Positions 59,188 to 64,000 of a DNA stretch of 64,000 bases are shown here, piece by piece. A program made the translations under genes and the position numbers. This stretch comes from Noviherbaspirillum massiliense JC206 (GTDB lineage Bacteria; Pseudomonadota; Gammaproteobacteria; Burkholderiales; Burkholderiaceae_D). Position 1 is the first letter of the stretch, and each line of letters opens with the position of its first letter. The DNA lies in assembly GCF_000312045.1 (NCBI RefSeq), contig NZ_HE978634.1, forward strand, positions 1,854,098-1,918,097, read 5' to 3'. The notes beneath the pieces are model-generated. The model was not told where the DNA came from. It saw only the letters and a list, made by a program, of their open reading frames with translations, and did not search any database.

Positions 59188-59231
59188 GCAATTTGTTGGC
59201 CGCTGCGTAGCGGAAATCATTATCGCTCTGC

Positions 59232-59237
59232 TATAAT
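59232..59237 (+). promoter_or_regulatory. -10 element of tRNA-Pro
   Basis: A perfect TATAAT lies 11 bases before the tRNA. No convincing -35 is visible at the right distance. Confidence 0.5.
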
Positions 59238-59247
59238 ACGCGGCTCG

Positions 59248-59325
<78 letters not shown>

Positions 59326-59344
59326 ATAGAATCAAAGACTTACG

Positions 59345-59371
59345 AAAAGCCGCCTTGTGCGGCTTTTTTTT
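59345..59371 (+). terminator. Terminator after tRNA-Pro
   Basis: A 9-bp stem (AAAAGCCGC with GCGGCTTTT), loop CTTGT and a T-run. Confidence 0.88.
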
Positions 59372-60524
59372 GCCTTGGATTTGGTAAGAAATCTGATAAG
59401 AAAGAATCCAAGTACGAAGCGAACGATCGAGAGTCCCGTTCGCAGTTCGGTGCCGCACTAGTTCGTCAAAAATTCCTTTGCGAAAATACCAACCAATACG
59501 ATTGGCCTTTTATTCTCGGAACCAGATACATCCCTATCCAACCTATTCCCTTGGAATTCACTTCAGGTTCGCGCCTCTTCATAAGACACATCGACCAAAT
59601 TTTCCAAATTTTTCAACGTGCACGCGGCAATAGGATGTAACGTTTCGCCGCCCACGATTCACTTTGGCTCAAAGCGCCACCACTCAGCATTTTTCCATTA
59701 GCGTTCGAGCAATCAAATAGCGCCTGCCGGATTTCCCTAGCCACAGCGGCTCGAAACAGGACCGCTTGCGAAGTGTTTGTTAGGAGCGCGCGGATGTACC
59801 TCGCTCATGGCGTATTTAACCTGCGGTCCGCCGTTGGCAATTCGTTATCGTTGTCCGCAAAGAACACCTTGTTTCGCAGTTAAATTCAATAACACCAGCT
59901 GCTAACAGGATCAGGCTGATCTAGTACTTAGGCATTTTTAGAGCGACCATTCACACGTCATTAGGTCTTCCATCATGTTCACAAAGTGCGAATATGAATC
60001 GGACTTAAGCCGGTTTGCGGTATCGGCCAATAACTAAAGAAGCGTCACGTAAGAAAGAAACAGTACCGCATGGGTGATGTGCGAAGAAGCCTTTCATCAT
60101 TGATCACCCTCAAACACCGCCTTCAATTCGGTGGATTATGTGGCCAATCGTTTTTACTGTAATAACTAGTCACTGTTTCAATGGGATTGCTGTAATAAAT
60201 AGTCACCATCTCAATGAGAATTACGCTCTAACGCTAAATGGCACTTTGGAATGGCAAGCCGGCCAATGCAGTAGAAAGGCATTCTCACTCTTCGACCACT
60301 CAATGACATTAGTGCACACGCAGTAGATGCTTATGCCGCACTATTCCGAGATTAGTGTGAGTACCCATATGACTTATGCCGTTAATCACGTCAAACGACG
60401 GGGCGAGGCGATTCAAGGCCAACAGAGAATGCCTCCACTCATCCTCTGAAGGACGGAATAGACAGGATCCTTCAGATACGACATAGCGCATCGCAGAGGT
60501 GATTAGCATCAACGAGGAGGTGTC
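59372..60524. other. Gene-poor junction between tRNA-Pro and the accessory operon
   Basis: About 1.15 kb with no recognisable gene on either strand. Base composition appears more AT-rich than the core, with several stretches of mixed short repeats, and the only open frames are short and lack family features. No integrase, att repeat or complete insertion sequence is seen. It looks like decayed DNA at a former insertion site. Confidence 0.6.
60157..60222 (+). repeat. Two imperfect 33-base tandem repeats
   Basis: Two copies with period 33 share CTGTAATAA, TAGTCAC and TCAATG segments, at roughly 75 percent identity. Terminal repeats of this kind occur at some insertion sequence ends (for example IS21 family), but no transposase is present, so this is only a possible relic. 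Confidence 0.5.
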
Positions 60525-61673
60525 GTGGTTACACCCAATATACCCCTAGAACGTAGCCTCGCCCCCGTTCATGAGTTAGGTGATCGAGCACCTCAACCGG
60601 GAATTGGCCTATGTCTCTCTGGAGGGGGTTATCGGGCGATGATTTTCCATTTGGGAGCACTCATTCGGCTGAATGAAGCCGGCCTACTTTCTCAATTAAC
60701 ACGCGTTTCCAGCGTTTCCGGCGGCTCAATTACGGCTGCCGTGTTAGGTATGAAATGGCAGAACCTTCGATTCATAAATGGAATCGCGTCAAATCTCATT
60801 CGCGAAGTAATCGATCCGATCCGGCGCTTCGCCCAGCATACAGTTGATATTCCGTCGATAATTACTGGCACCCTCTTGCCTGGCACTGCTAGCGATAGAG
60901 TGGCACGGGCTTACAGTGAATACCTATATGGCGATGAAACACTGCAATCGCTGCCAGATGACCCACCCCGCTTCGTTATTAATGCGGCGAACATCCAAAG
61001 CGGGGCGCTCGTAAGGTTTTCAAAACCCTATATCCGGGATTATAAGGTGGGCGAAATACGTAACCCCGCCGTTTCGTTGGCCATGGCGGTCACAGCCTCT
61101 TCCGCCTTCCCGCCCGTGCTATCCCCTGCTGTAATGAAGTTCACCCCCAATGCTTTCAGTCCCGTCAATAACGAAATGCTGGCAAGCGAAGAATTCCGTA
61201 AACAAATGGTGCTAAGTGACGGGGGCGTTTACGACAATCTTGGGTTGGAAACCGTATGGAAACGGTTGGACACGGTGCTGGTATCCGATGCTGGTATGAA
61301 ATTCGCCCCGGATCATCACCCTGCCGAGGACTGGGTGCGGCATAGCAGGCGTGTGTTGGAACTAATTGACAACCAAGTGCGCGGCCTGCGCAAAAGGCAA
61401 TTGATCAGCGCATTTCAAGCCGGCCTGCGTCGAGGATGCTACTGGGGAATTGGAACAGACATCAATAGTTACGGGCTGGATGATGCACTGCCCTGTCCTC
61501 CGGATCGCACAGATGAGCTTGCCCATGAGCCTACCAGACTGGCAAAACTTCCGGATGAAGTACAGGAGCGGTTGATTAACTGGGGGTATGCCGTATGTGA
61601 CGCGGCAGTGCGACGTTATCTGGATCCTTCCCTGGCACCGCCGACGCAGTTTCCTTATGCATCGGGAGTTTGA
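60525..61673 (+). CDS. Patatin-like phospholipase
   Basis: A 382-residue patatin-type lipid hydrolase with a Ser-Asp dyad. The oxyanion loop is SGGGYRA at 32-38. The nucleophile is Ser65 in SVSGG, where the usual first Gly of GxSxG is Ser63. The catalytic Asp232 is in LSDGGVYDNLG. There is no signal peptide or membrane helix, so it should act on inner membranes or lipids from the cytosol. The GTG start has GAGGAGG 5 bases upstream. Patatins are effectors in some anti-phage systems such as CBASS, and the neighbours here make a similar role worth testing. Confidence 0.88.
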   Translation: MVTPNIPLERSLAPVHELGDRAPQPGIGLCLSGGGYRAMIFHLGALIRLNEAGLLSQLTRVSSVSGGSITAAVLGMKWQNLRFINGIASNLIREVIDPIRRFAQHTVDIPSIITGTLLPGTASDRVARAYSEYLYGDETLQSLPDDPPRFVINAANIQSGALVRFSKPYIRDYKVGEIRNPAVSLAMAVTASSAFPPVLSPAVMKFTPNAFSPVNNEMLASEEFRKQMVLSDGGVYDNLGLETVWKRLDTVLVSDAGMKFAPDHHPAEDWVRHSRRVLELIDNQVRGLRKRQLISAFQAGLRRGCYWGIGTDINSYGLDDALPCPPDRTDELAHEPTRLAKLPDEVQERLINWGYAVCDAAVRRYLDPSLAPPTQFPYASGV

Positions 61674-61766
61674 GTCGTTTACGTACAGTTAGCGCTATTT
61701 CAATTTGACAGTACATGGTAATTCCGGATTGGCCATTGACTGCCGAATCAGTTAGGAGGAAGGCTC

Positions 61767-63716
61767 ATGTTCCCGAACACCAGCAAGGAATACCGCGAAG
61801 AGCCGGCTGACCATCTACCCAATCTACCGCCGTTTCGACGGCTCAAGGCGTACGCGTTCGACCCAAGCCTATCCCTTCGCCTAGAAACAGCGGCAATCAA
61901 CCACACGACCTTTGAAATACCGTGGGACAGCAAATTAAAACCCGGGCCACGAGGCGACTATATTGAAGTGGTGGACTATGATCCAGCGAGCGGGTGCTGG
62001 TATGACCCCGTCGACTTGAATGCGACGCATATCCTTGCCCAGGACGGTCTCCCGCCGTCGCAGGGCAATCCACAGTTTCACCAACAAATGGTCTATGCCG
62101 TGGCTATGAACACGATTTCAAATTTTCAACGTGCACTTGGGCGGCAAGTCATGTGGTCATCGCGCGACGTCCCTGCATCAAAAGCCACGGGGGCCCAGCG
62201 CGATCAATATGTGCCAACTCTGCGTATCTATCCCCATGCATTGCGCGCAGCTAATGCCTATTACAGCCCGAAAAAGAAAGCCTTGCTCTTTGGTTATTTC
62301 CAGGGCCCGACCGGCACCGTATTTTCATGTTTATCACAGGATATTGTCGTACATGAGACGACGCATGCTCTGCTTGATGGAATGCATCGAAGGTACGTGG
62401 AGGACAATCACCCCGATACGTTGGCCTTCCATGAGGCGTTTGCAGATCTGGTCGCCCTGTTCCAGCATTTCACGCTGCCTGAAGTCCTTAAGCATCAGCT
62501 GGAACGGACACGCGGCAACCTCGAGGCGCATACATTGTTAGGCGAGCTTGCTCAGGAATTCGGGGAAGCGACGGGTCGCTACGGGGCCCTGCGCAGTGCT
62601 ATTGGAGAAATTGGGCCTGATGGCGAGTGGCACCTTATCAAACCGAATCCCAGGCGCCTGCATGAGGCCGCAGCTCCGCATGAGCGGGGCTCAATTTTAG
62701 TGGCCGCCGTGTTCTCGGCCTTCCTAGCCATTTACAAGGCACGGACGAAAGGCCTACTTGCTATTGCAAGCGCGGGGTCCGGGAAATTACCTGAGGGCAT
62801 ACTTCATCCTAGCCTGATCGAAGCCCTTGCCCTCCAGGCTACGAAAACGGCAAGGCACTTTTTATATATGTCGATTCGCGCGCTAGATTATTGCCCGCCG
62901 TTCGACATTACATTTGGTGACTATCTGCGCGCACTGATCACTGCAGACTATGACATGGTTCCCAATGACAAATACGGGTACCGGGTGGCCTTGATTGAAT
63001 CGTTTCGCCGTTGGGGCATTGTGCCGGAAGGGCTCAAAACGCTGTCAGAAGAGCAGTTGCGCTGGCCCTACGCCAAGCTCGAGTATGAACATGGTTGGAA
63101 TGCGCTCGCGGCGGTGGCCGACAATTTAAAAGAACTCATAAGTAATGCGCTGTATGTCGACGAACGCAAAAATGTATTCGACTACTTGAAAGATGCGCGA
63201 ATAAAAACGCATGAGTTTTTGCGTGGCGCGCTGACGAGAAAGGAAGAACAAGCTCAACGCGAAGCGTTCATGAAAGTGACAGGACTAAATTTGTCGCCTG
63301 AGATAAAAGAGGTCGCAAGCCAACTCTATCGTCGACCAGAAAAAGCTGTGGAGCTACCTTCTTTTGAAGTGCATTCAGTATTGCCTACGCTGCGCGTTAC
63401 CCCTGACGGGGAGATTAAAAAACAATTGATCATTTCGGTAACCCAGAGGGTCGCCGCGGACATTAATCGTGATGATCCAAGCTGCGGGACATTCGATTTC
63501 CGCGGTGGAAGCACGCTTATCTTTGATATGGACGGCGATCCGACCCTGCGGTATGCCATCACCCGTCCGATTGGCGATCAAAAGCGCCTGGAGGCGATTC
63601 AAGCCTATAAAAGTGCCCGCAGCGAAAAGCGCTTTTCACTGCGGGAGACCTACTTCAGCGGTCTTTCGCTGTCATTGGAAGAAGAACCATTTTGTTTCTT
63701 GCATGACGAGTACTAG
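61767..63716 (+). CDS. Thermolysin-type (gluzincin) metallopeptidase of unusual architecture
   Basis: A 649-residue protein with a clear gluzincin zinc site: HETTH at 196-200, with Glu223 and Asp227 in HEAFAD, the same E-x3-D pattern as the M4 third ligand. There is no signal peptide or M4 propeptide, so it appears cytosolic. The region after about residue 430 has no family I recognise and includes a long helical stretch and a beta-rich C-terminus. TAGGAGGAAGG precedes the ATG. It lies 93 bases after the patatin gene and 9 bases before the MBL-type gene. It could activate or process a partner, which is an inference. Confidence 0.75.
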   Translation: MFPNTSKEYREEPADHLPNLPPFRRLKAYAFDPSLSLRLETAAINHTTFEIPWDSKLKPGPRGDYIEVVDYDPASGCWYDPVDLNATHILAQDGLPPSQGNPQFHQQMVYAVAMNTISNFQRALGRQVMWSSRDVPASKATGAQRDQYVPTLRIYPHALRAANAYYSPKKKALLFGYFQGPTGTVFSCLSQDIVVHETTHALLDGMHRRYVEDNHPDTLAFHEAFADLVALFQHFTLPEVLKHQLERTRGNLEAHTLLGELAQEFGEATGRYGALRSAIGEIGPDGEWHLIKPNPRRLHEAAAPHERGSILVAAVFSAFLAIYKARTKGLLAIASAGSGKLPEGILHPSLIEALALQATKTARHFLYMSIRALDYCPPFDITFGDYLRALITADYDMVPNDKYGYRVALIESFRRWGIVPEGLKTLSEEQLRWPYAKLEYEHGWNALAAVADNLKELISNALYVDERKNVFDYLKDARIKTHEFLRGALTRKEEQAQREAFMKVTGLNLSPEIKEVASQLYRRPEKAVELPSFEVHSVLPTLRVTPDGEIKKQLIISVTQRVAADINRDDPSCGTFDFRGGSTLIFDMDGDPTLRYAITRPIGDQKRLEAIQAYKSARSEKRFSLRETYFSGLSLSLEEEPFCFLHDEY

Positions 63717-63725
63717 GAGATCGAA

Positions 63726-64000
63726 ATGGCTCCAAGGACAAGAAATGCGCCAGGGAAAAAACCATTGGAACATCAAACCGTTTCCGGTCGCCGCAGCACA
63801 GACCAGAAAGGTGATAACCCAATCGCGGAAACTCCACGCTTGCGTATCCGCATGTACCGACATGGCTTGGGAGATTGTCTCCTGCTCCGCTTTGCGCAAT
63901 CTTCCGACCGCACATTCAATATCGTCATTGACTGCGGCTTAATCGGCGTCGCACGAAACCCGAAAGAGACAATGGCAAGGGTAGTGCAAGATATATCAAC
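63726..64000 (+). CDS. Metallo-beta-lactamase-fold protein, 5' part only
   Basis: The gene runs off the right edge; 91 codons are visible. After a basic, low-complexity first 37 residues, the start of an MBL fold is visible: RMYRHGLGDCLLLRF (42-56), then the strand NIVIDCGLIG (65-74). This resembles the ComEC-like MBL group, which begins with a GxGD loop and an ID-G turn. The metal-binding HxHxDH motif would be beyond the window. AGGAGA overlaps the upstream stop, so it is coupled to the peptidase gene. Confidence 0.7.
   Translation, partial: MAPRTRNAPGKKPLEHQTVSGRRSTDQKGDNPIAETPRLRIRMYRHGLGDCLLLRFAQSSDRTFNIVIDCGLIGVARNPKETMARVVQDIS

Follow-up and report, generated by a model that had tools for sequence, protein, structure and literature searches.

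A mobile metallopeptidase-MBL gene pair with an exchangeable patatin partner, a possible protease-activated defense module of Noviherbaspirillum massiliense

Known nuclease-protease pairs and the operon of N. massiliense

In bacterial defense, nuclease-protease pairs occur in Hachiman (HamMAB), AVAST (Avs1), Lamassu and DRT, as described in the main text of Tuck et al. 2025 (PMC12799240). According to this text, HamM and Avs1a are metallo-beta-lactamase (MBL) proteins that resemble ComEC, possess two disordered insertions and are cleaved by their trypsin-like partner, and HamM degrades DNA once it is cut; in canu, a caspase gene lies 5' of the MBL gene. The words 'peptidase', 'subtilisin', 'patatin' and 'M48' are absent from the main text, 'metallo' stands for metallo-beta-lactamase where it is shown, and the supplement may list other protease classes. 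A literature search covering titles and abstract openings retrieved no description of a metallopeptidase-MBL pair or of the triad reported here, an operon of Noviherbaspirillum massiliense JC206 that encodes on the same strand a patatin-like phospholipase, a zinc metallopeptidase and an MBL-fold protein, in this order (Table 1). The operon is cut by the right edge of the DNA stretch that was analyzed, 64,000 nucleotides of a 4.19-Mb genome (C1:1854098-1918097, in the following the window). The three co-directional genes had been noted in an initial annotation, and their coordinates were confirmed; reading past position 64000, as recommended there, recovered the whole MBL gene, which encodes 533 amino acids and ends about 1.3 kb outside the window. 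We propose that the triad is a horizontally acquired cytosolic suicide module against phages or other invaders, in which the metallopeptidase activates the MBL protein, a pro-nuclease, and the patatin is an exchangeable second effector; in our view, the chances of this reading are just short of even.

The operon resembles the pairs of HamMAB, Avs1, Lamassu and DRT in that a ComEC-like MBL gene adjoins a protease gene, in the insertions of the MBL protein relative to ComEC, and in the defense neighborhood of some relatives. However, the protease of these pairs is a trypsin-like domain that is fused to a core defense protein and encoded 3' of the MBL gene, whereas the operon has a stand-alone metallopeptidase of the M36/M4 fold encoded 5' of it, an extra lipase and one conserved flexible loop. 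It also lacks the LmuB SMC-like ATPase of Lamassu, as the open reading frame (ORF) list contains no ATPase gene in the operon. With canu it shares the 5' protease gene, the 3' gene for an MBL pro-nuclease and variable accessory genes, but it is without a caspase, its protease class is unrelated, and it has a lipase. Because of the different protease class and the lipase, and despite the canu gene order, we do not place the operon in the trypsin or caspase kinds and regard it as a variant whose mode of action, by this comparison, is probably alike. The patatin fold is common to the CapV-type patatin effectors of CBASS. Control of the patatin in the manner of CBASS, whose patatin effectors the initial annotation had named as background, is not borne out, as the ORF lists show no CD-NTase cyclase gene in the operon. 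With respect to the PADLOC candidate system PDC-M48, the MBL protein matches PDC-M48B weakly (1.1e-5), and for the peptidase a PADLOC search at E 0.1 gave no model.

Peptidase and MBL protein form the conserved unit

The peptidase has an M36/M4-like gluzincin fold over about residues 22-431, the range mainly covered by the fold comparison, together with the HExxH motif (HETTH, 196-200) and the downstream glutamate (E223) of gluzincins. Fold and HExxH...E are common to M36 (fungalysin) and M4 (thermolysin), from which the protein differs in having no Pfam match, no signal-like segment and an extra C-terminal region of about 215 amino acids beyond the fold. The Pfam search gave no match at a limit of E 5, where weak matches may be filtered, so that the protein is not placed in the M4 or M36 families of that database; it gave no caspase match either, and the M36/M4 fold with HExxH sets the protein apart from trypsin-like proteases and caspases. 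In both loci read of a sister peptidase subfamily (L198:9298-14066, L199:6835-11685; L numbers denote loci), the peptidase gene follows a gene for a caspase-domain protein of 965-993 amino acids, at distances of 38 and 12 bases. In one of them, this partner shows weak Amidase_2 and alpha/beta-hydrolase matches below the cut-offs, and in neither stretch was an MBL gene found or an HxHxDH-type ORF listed.

The MBL protein has a ComEC-type nuclease fold with an intact metal motif of the nuclease type (HxHxDH). Its structure model contains a flexible loop at residues 271-320 that is found family-wide, and in this loop Y279 is near-invariant and P313-F314 is invariant.

Named genomes were searched with a profile-guided scan, which gave at least 572 relatives among candidate stretches; the best 80 of 572 were kept (the 80 loci). 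An MBL relative lies 3' of the peptidase on the same strand in 78 of the 80 loci, and in the 76 with coordinates the gap is always below 300 bases, save for two (374 in L057; L055 is split). As for the two loci without MBL, L104 stops about 130 bases past the peptidase gene, and L122 yielded neither an MBL match nor a hit for the MBL motif pattern that was tried. The MBL genes of L052 and L102 contain a stop in the derived frame. That of L055 (L055:12075-14582) gives two separate matches with about 1.3 kb between them and looks interrupted. Ordinary M4-like relatives from the window's family served as a control, and none of their 26 loci had an MBL or patatin match at E 1e-3; 25 of these were read 1.5 kb past the match, which in the single locus measured reaches about 1 kb beyond the gene, and L017 ends at its contig end. 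The peptidase is not only adjacent to the MBL protein but also co-inherited with it, as their identities correlate (Spearman 0.50, n=86; because of frame stops, L052 and L102 entered without their MBL rows and L102 also without its patatin row, and the MBL of L055 was counted as present with only its second piece used). Peptidase and MBL protein are the conserved unit of the cassette. A core of patatin and peptidase was considered and rejected, as the MBL protein is the constant partner and matches to the window patatin are confined to 22 of the 80 loci. The three-gene set of the initial annotation thus does recur in other genomes, with a patchy distribution, but what is conserved is the peptidase with the MBL protein and not with the patatin; neither a lack of co-conservation nor membership in a known metabolic or secretion pathway, both named there as grounds for giving up its reading, was found.

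The patatin is an exchangeable partner

The patatin scores 65.8 bits against PF01734 (cut-off 27.7) and has the motifs GGG 33, Ser65 in VSGG and DGG 232, with a GxSxG motif that begins with Ser rather than Gly. PADLOC phospholipase effector models match it at E 0.01-0.017. In 44 of the 80 loci, a same-strand gene is present up to 400 bases upstream of the pair. A Pfam scan of 53 proteins that are encoded upstream or fused at the N-terminus, with L050 and L086 not represented by their upstream genes, found 20 patatins, 9 S8 subtilases and 1 Tle1-like lipase; the remaining families are mostly represented by one protein each and apparently unrelated (25 of 35 families listed). The slot is also variable on plasmids, where a phospholipase-D-like gene is found 34 bases 5' of the pair (it also matches DrmC models and may thus encode a nuclease), and a DUF2235 gene (DUF2235 being the older name of the Tle1-like family) 3' of the MBL gene. 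Plasmid relatives with an S8 domain fused to the peptidase represent a further variant, and in two Hymenobacter plasmids an LmuB-like ATPase is encoded 15-24 bases 5' of the pair (LmuB 2.2e-20 and 3.9e-24).

In this genome, the patatin has been swapped against an unchanged peptidase-MBL pair, and it is one of several exchangeable partners. Compared with seven betaproteobacterial loci, the pair shows identities of 64-72% (peptidase) and 55-59% (MBL), but the patatin only 30-32%. It reaches 52-57% with the patatins of a second set of loci, from a Rhizobium plasmid, a Sinorhizobium, a planctomycete and another betaproteobacterium, and with the peptidases of this set the window peptidase shares 48-50%. 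In the peptidase tree, the window protein falls into a clade of 11 betaproteobacterial rows (support 100/100), whereas the window patatin groups with the second set; joining it to the seven betaproteobacterial patatins was rejected (approximately unbiased test, p 1e-65), with test groups picked after the identities were known and with the L052 patatin outside the clade test. Forcing the window peptidase together with six patatin-linked others was rejected as well (p 7e-32), which has little weight, as these six form no clade themselves. The exchange is drawn from identities and trees; Mantel correlations on the same 20 loci (patatin-peptidase 0.53, patatin-MBL 0.62, peptidase-MBL 0.68) did not separate the patatin from the pair.

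This exchange bears on another possible wiring, in which the peptidase would activate the patatin and not the MBL protein, so that the lipase would be the killer and the MBL protein a regulator, e.g., by hydrolyzing a signal or by holding the system in its off state. Between a protease and its specific substrate, such an exchange would be expected to meet resistance, and the MBL protein has an intact metal motif of the nuclease type. Patatin, Tle1-like and phospholipase-D-like proteins do recur beside the pair, the patatin gene stands first in the operon, and there is an overall correlation between the identities of patatin and peptidase as well (0.53, n=20), but with the window patatin matched in 22 of the 80 loci and 20 patatins among 53 upstream or fused proteins, as opposed to MBL relatives in 78 of 80 loci, we think that this wiring is unlikely. 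The reading of the initial annotation, a protease-controlled lipase module that may have a defense role, is thus partly supported: the better-supported target of the protease is the ComEC-type MBL protein, since peptidase and MBL protein are conserved and the patatin is exchangeable and was swapped here.

The nearest patatin, from S. meliloti M270 (57.7% identity), is encoded by the first gene of a patatin-S8-MBL operon, and the MBL protein of this operon strongly matches the LmuA (7.2e-53), Avs1a (8.6e-32) and RT-associated MBL (9.6e-31) models. By annotation, Paroceanicella has the order patatin, hypothetical protein, S8, MBL. On plasmid B of S. americanum (L124:4713-7227), a patatin of the window type is encoded divergently beside a caspase-domain gene. 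Plasmid pRlX3 of R. ruizarguesonis (L129, 39 kb) carries in one stretch an S8-gluzincin fusion with MBL pieces and a separate patatin, and also an annotated serine protease with a weak M4 match below the cut-off, followed by a short MBL gene. In L086 (L086:2842-8058), a protein of 1739 amino acids encoded 5' of an S8-gluzincin fusion shows local similarity to the patatin set.

Mobility and defense-gene neighborhood

The triad is a mobile, horizontally acquired cassette, as seen from its foreign composition and patchy distribution. Its GC content of 52.3% is below that of every one of 162 overlapping 4.9-kb flanking windows (54.3-63.1%). Among 11 other genomes of the genus, 10 are without a match and one (G162) has a more distant sister type, and class-wide 4 of 369 genomes match at 1e-60, the window's own genome included. 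On plasmids, the relatives are mostly annotated as 'hypothetical protein' or 'MBL fold metallo-hydrolase'. The tRNA-Pro gene upstream of the operon is an integration site in the genus: in two relatives it is used by islands that bear an integrase, with partial 3' copies of the tRNA at distances of 14 and 19 kb from the intact one and Phage_integrase ORFs adjoining these copies (L177:1290-15217, L178:666-2317), which marks an integration hotspot. No attachment repeat of tRNA-Pro was found up to 38.6 kb downstream of the window's tRNA, the sole near match having 16 bases with 3 mismatches. A phage-collection record from a faecal sample (MT836994.1:4312-5883, 'Bacteriophage sp.', 9.5 kb) contains a peptidase relative with 37% identity over 90%.

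We opened 16 annotated plasmid stretches that carry the peptidase-MBL pair, and one more without annotation. CBASS and/or Hachiman genes are present in three of the 16, from R. leguminosarum 248, R. rhizogenes and A. tumefaciens H25/79, and these are the three opened plasmids that have patatin, peptidase and MBL protein in the window's order. HamA/HamB in R. leguminosarum 248 and PtuA/PDC-M01 in R. rhizogenes were confirmed by profiles, and the DUF1837 and helicase genes of A. tumefaciens H25/79 are assigned by annotation. Control stretches from the far side of four plasmids were without an annotated defense gene (0/4), with annotation being incomplete. The other 13 stretches contain SIR2, ThiF, MoxR or LmuB-like ATPase genes, or nothing obvious. 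The vicinity to defense genes, which the initial annotation had asked to check, is supported by the three triads.

The plasmid location could also point to a protease cascade or antagonism module that is not aimed at phage but acts between bacteria or on mobile DNA, e.g., in plasmid exclusion. The peptidase is matched by 63 plasmid records (25 of them over at least 80% of its length), caspase-gluzincin pairs occur in related loci, and the Tle1-like family is named in Pfam after secreted effectors; both lipase types have roles as secreted effectors. As hydropathy shows no signal-like or membrane-like segment in any of the three proteins, and as no secretion genes were recognized by eye among the neighbors, where no search for them was made, we regard such a function as quite improbable.

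Proposed mechanism

In the suicide module that we favor, the ComEC-type MBL nuclease would be kept inactive in the resting state by the insertions between its metal motifs. An infection would be sensed, with the C-terminal region of the peptidase or the patatin as candidate sensors, and the sensor would switch the peptidase on. The peptidase would then cut the MBL protein, most likely in the 271-320 loop (Y279, P313-F314), and the released nuclease would degrade DNA, so that both the cell and the phage are stopped. The patatin would be an accessory, most likely a second, membrane-damaging effector that is freed by the same switch. A more far-reaching version appears doubtful to us. It holds that a metallopeptidase, as a third protease class beside trypsin-like proteases and caspases, activates a ComEC-type DNase as well as a membrane lipase in a dual-effector system, that the lipase slot accepts enzymes without relationship to each other (patatin, Tle1-like and perhaps phospholipase D), and that members of this peptidase family are connected in other loci to subtilases, caspases and LmuB-like ATPases, as a bacterial proteolytic cascade with interchangeable outputs.

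Several observations weigh against the proposed module or limit its support. By the tests used, most of the 80 loci are without a lipase. The profile similarity of the MBL protein to known nuclease-associated models is mainly confined to its N-terminal motif region, the other flexible loop (201-212) occurs in few relatives, so that one half of the published 'two gating loops' signature is found, and the invariant residues of the 271-320 loop may be structural. The three defense-flanked triads are relatives and not independent, they leave out the plasmid triads NZ_CP048595.1 and NZ_CP144206.1 (the latter without annotation), and 13 of the 16 pair-bearing stretches have no annotated CBASS or Hachiman genes. 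For 20 long-contig loci, mostly from Bacteroidota, the flanks matched 98 defense-model families with 120 proteins compared with 41 for 119 control proteins (25 listed each), where many kinase models occur on both sides, the family counts are not per protein, the controls lie half a contig away, six of the seven genes picked per locus were scanned, and one control protein (L158:10600-15903) was dropped.

If the proposal is true, the principle of the proteolytically activated pro-nuclease extends to a metallopeptidase, lipases join as exchangeable partners, and the plasmid proteins with the annotations named above gain a role; on confirmation, bacterial immunity would have parts that can be swapped independently of each other, namely protease class, nuclease and lipase. 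The number of relatives and the precise loop residues provide material for tests.

Genome setting

The patatin gene starts 1.2 kb from the 3' end of tRNA-Pro, and as judged from the ORF lists, the three operon genes stand alone between this tRNA and the next downstream cluster. Besides the tRNA, no RNA family was found by Rfam in 59200-61800, and promoter-like sites were not enriched (2 found, 4.7 in shuffles).

Table 1. Features of the operon and its upstream region (positions within the window).
Feature	Position	Strand	Basis or remark
tRNA-Pro (ggg)	59249..59325	+	ARAGORN and Rfam; left of the operon
Gene-poor leader region, 46.5% GC	59326..60524	none	
Patatin-like phospholipase, 382 amino acids	60525..61673	+	PF01734 7.8e-18, motifs, hydropathy, tree
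Zinc metallopeptidase, 649 amino acids	61767..63716	+	M36/M4-like gluzincin fold, HETTH 196-200, E223
MBL-fold (ComEC-type nuclease-like) gene, start	63726..64000	+	Complete gene L002:5824-7425

Reading past the window also showed that a gene cluster, which we take to be of the hopanoid type from its gene order, begins about 460 bases past the MBL gene on the same strand. A metabolic or lipid-remodeling cassette tied to these neighbors is very improbable and was rejected, as two cluster genes used as queries matched none of 89 other loci (some with short flanks), and as the low GC content and patchy distribution of the triad set it apart. For the first gene of this cluster, which extends over L002:7887-20000, no close match to the glycosyltransferase-like product was present in the other searched genomes of the genus, and its best match (48%) is from another genus of the family. 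In the AT-richer leader 5' of the patatin gene, a tandem pair of 33-nt repeats (60154-60219, 82% alike) is a possible regulatory site.
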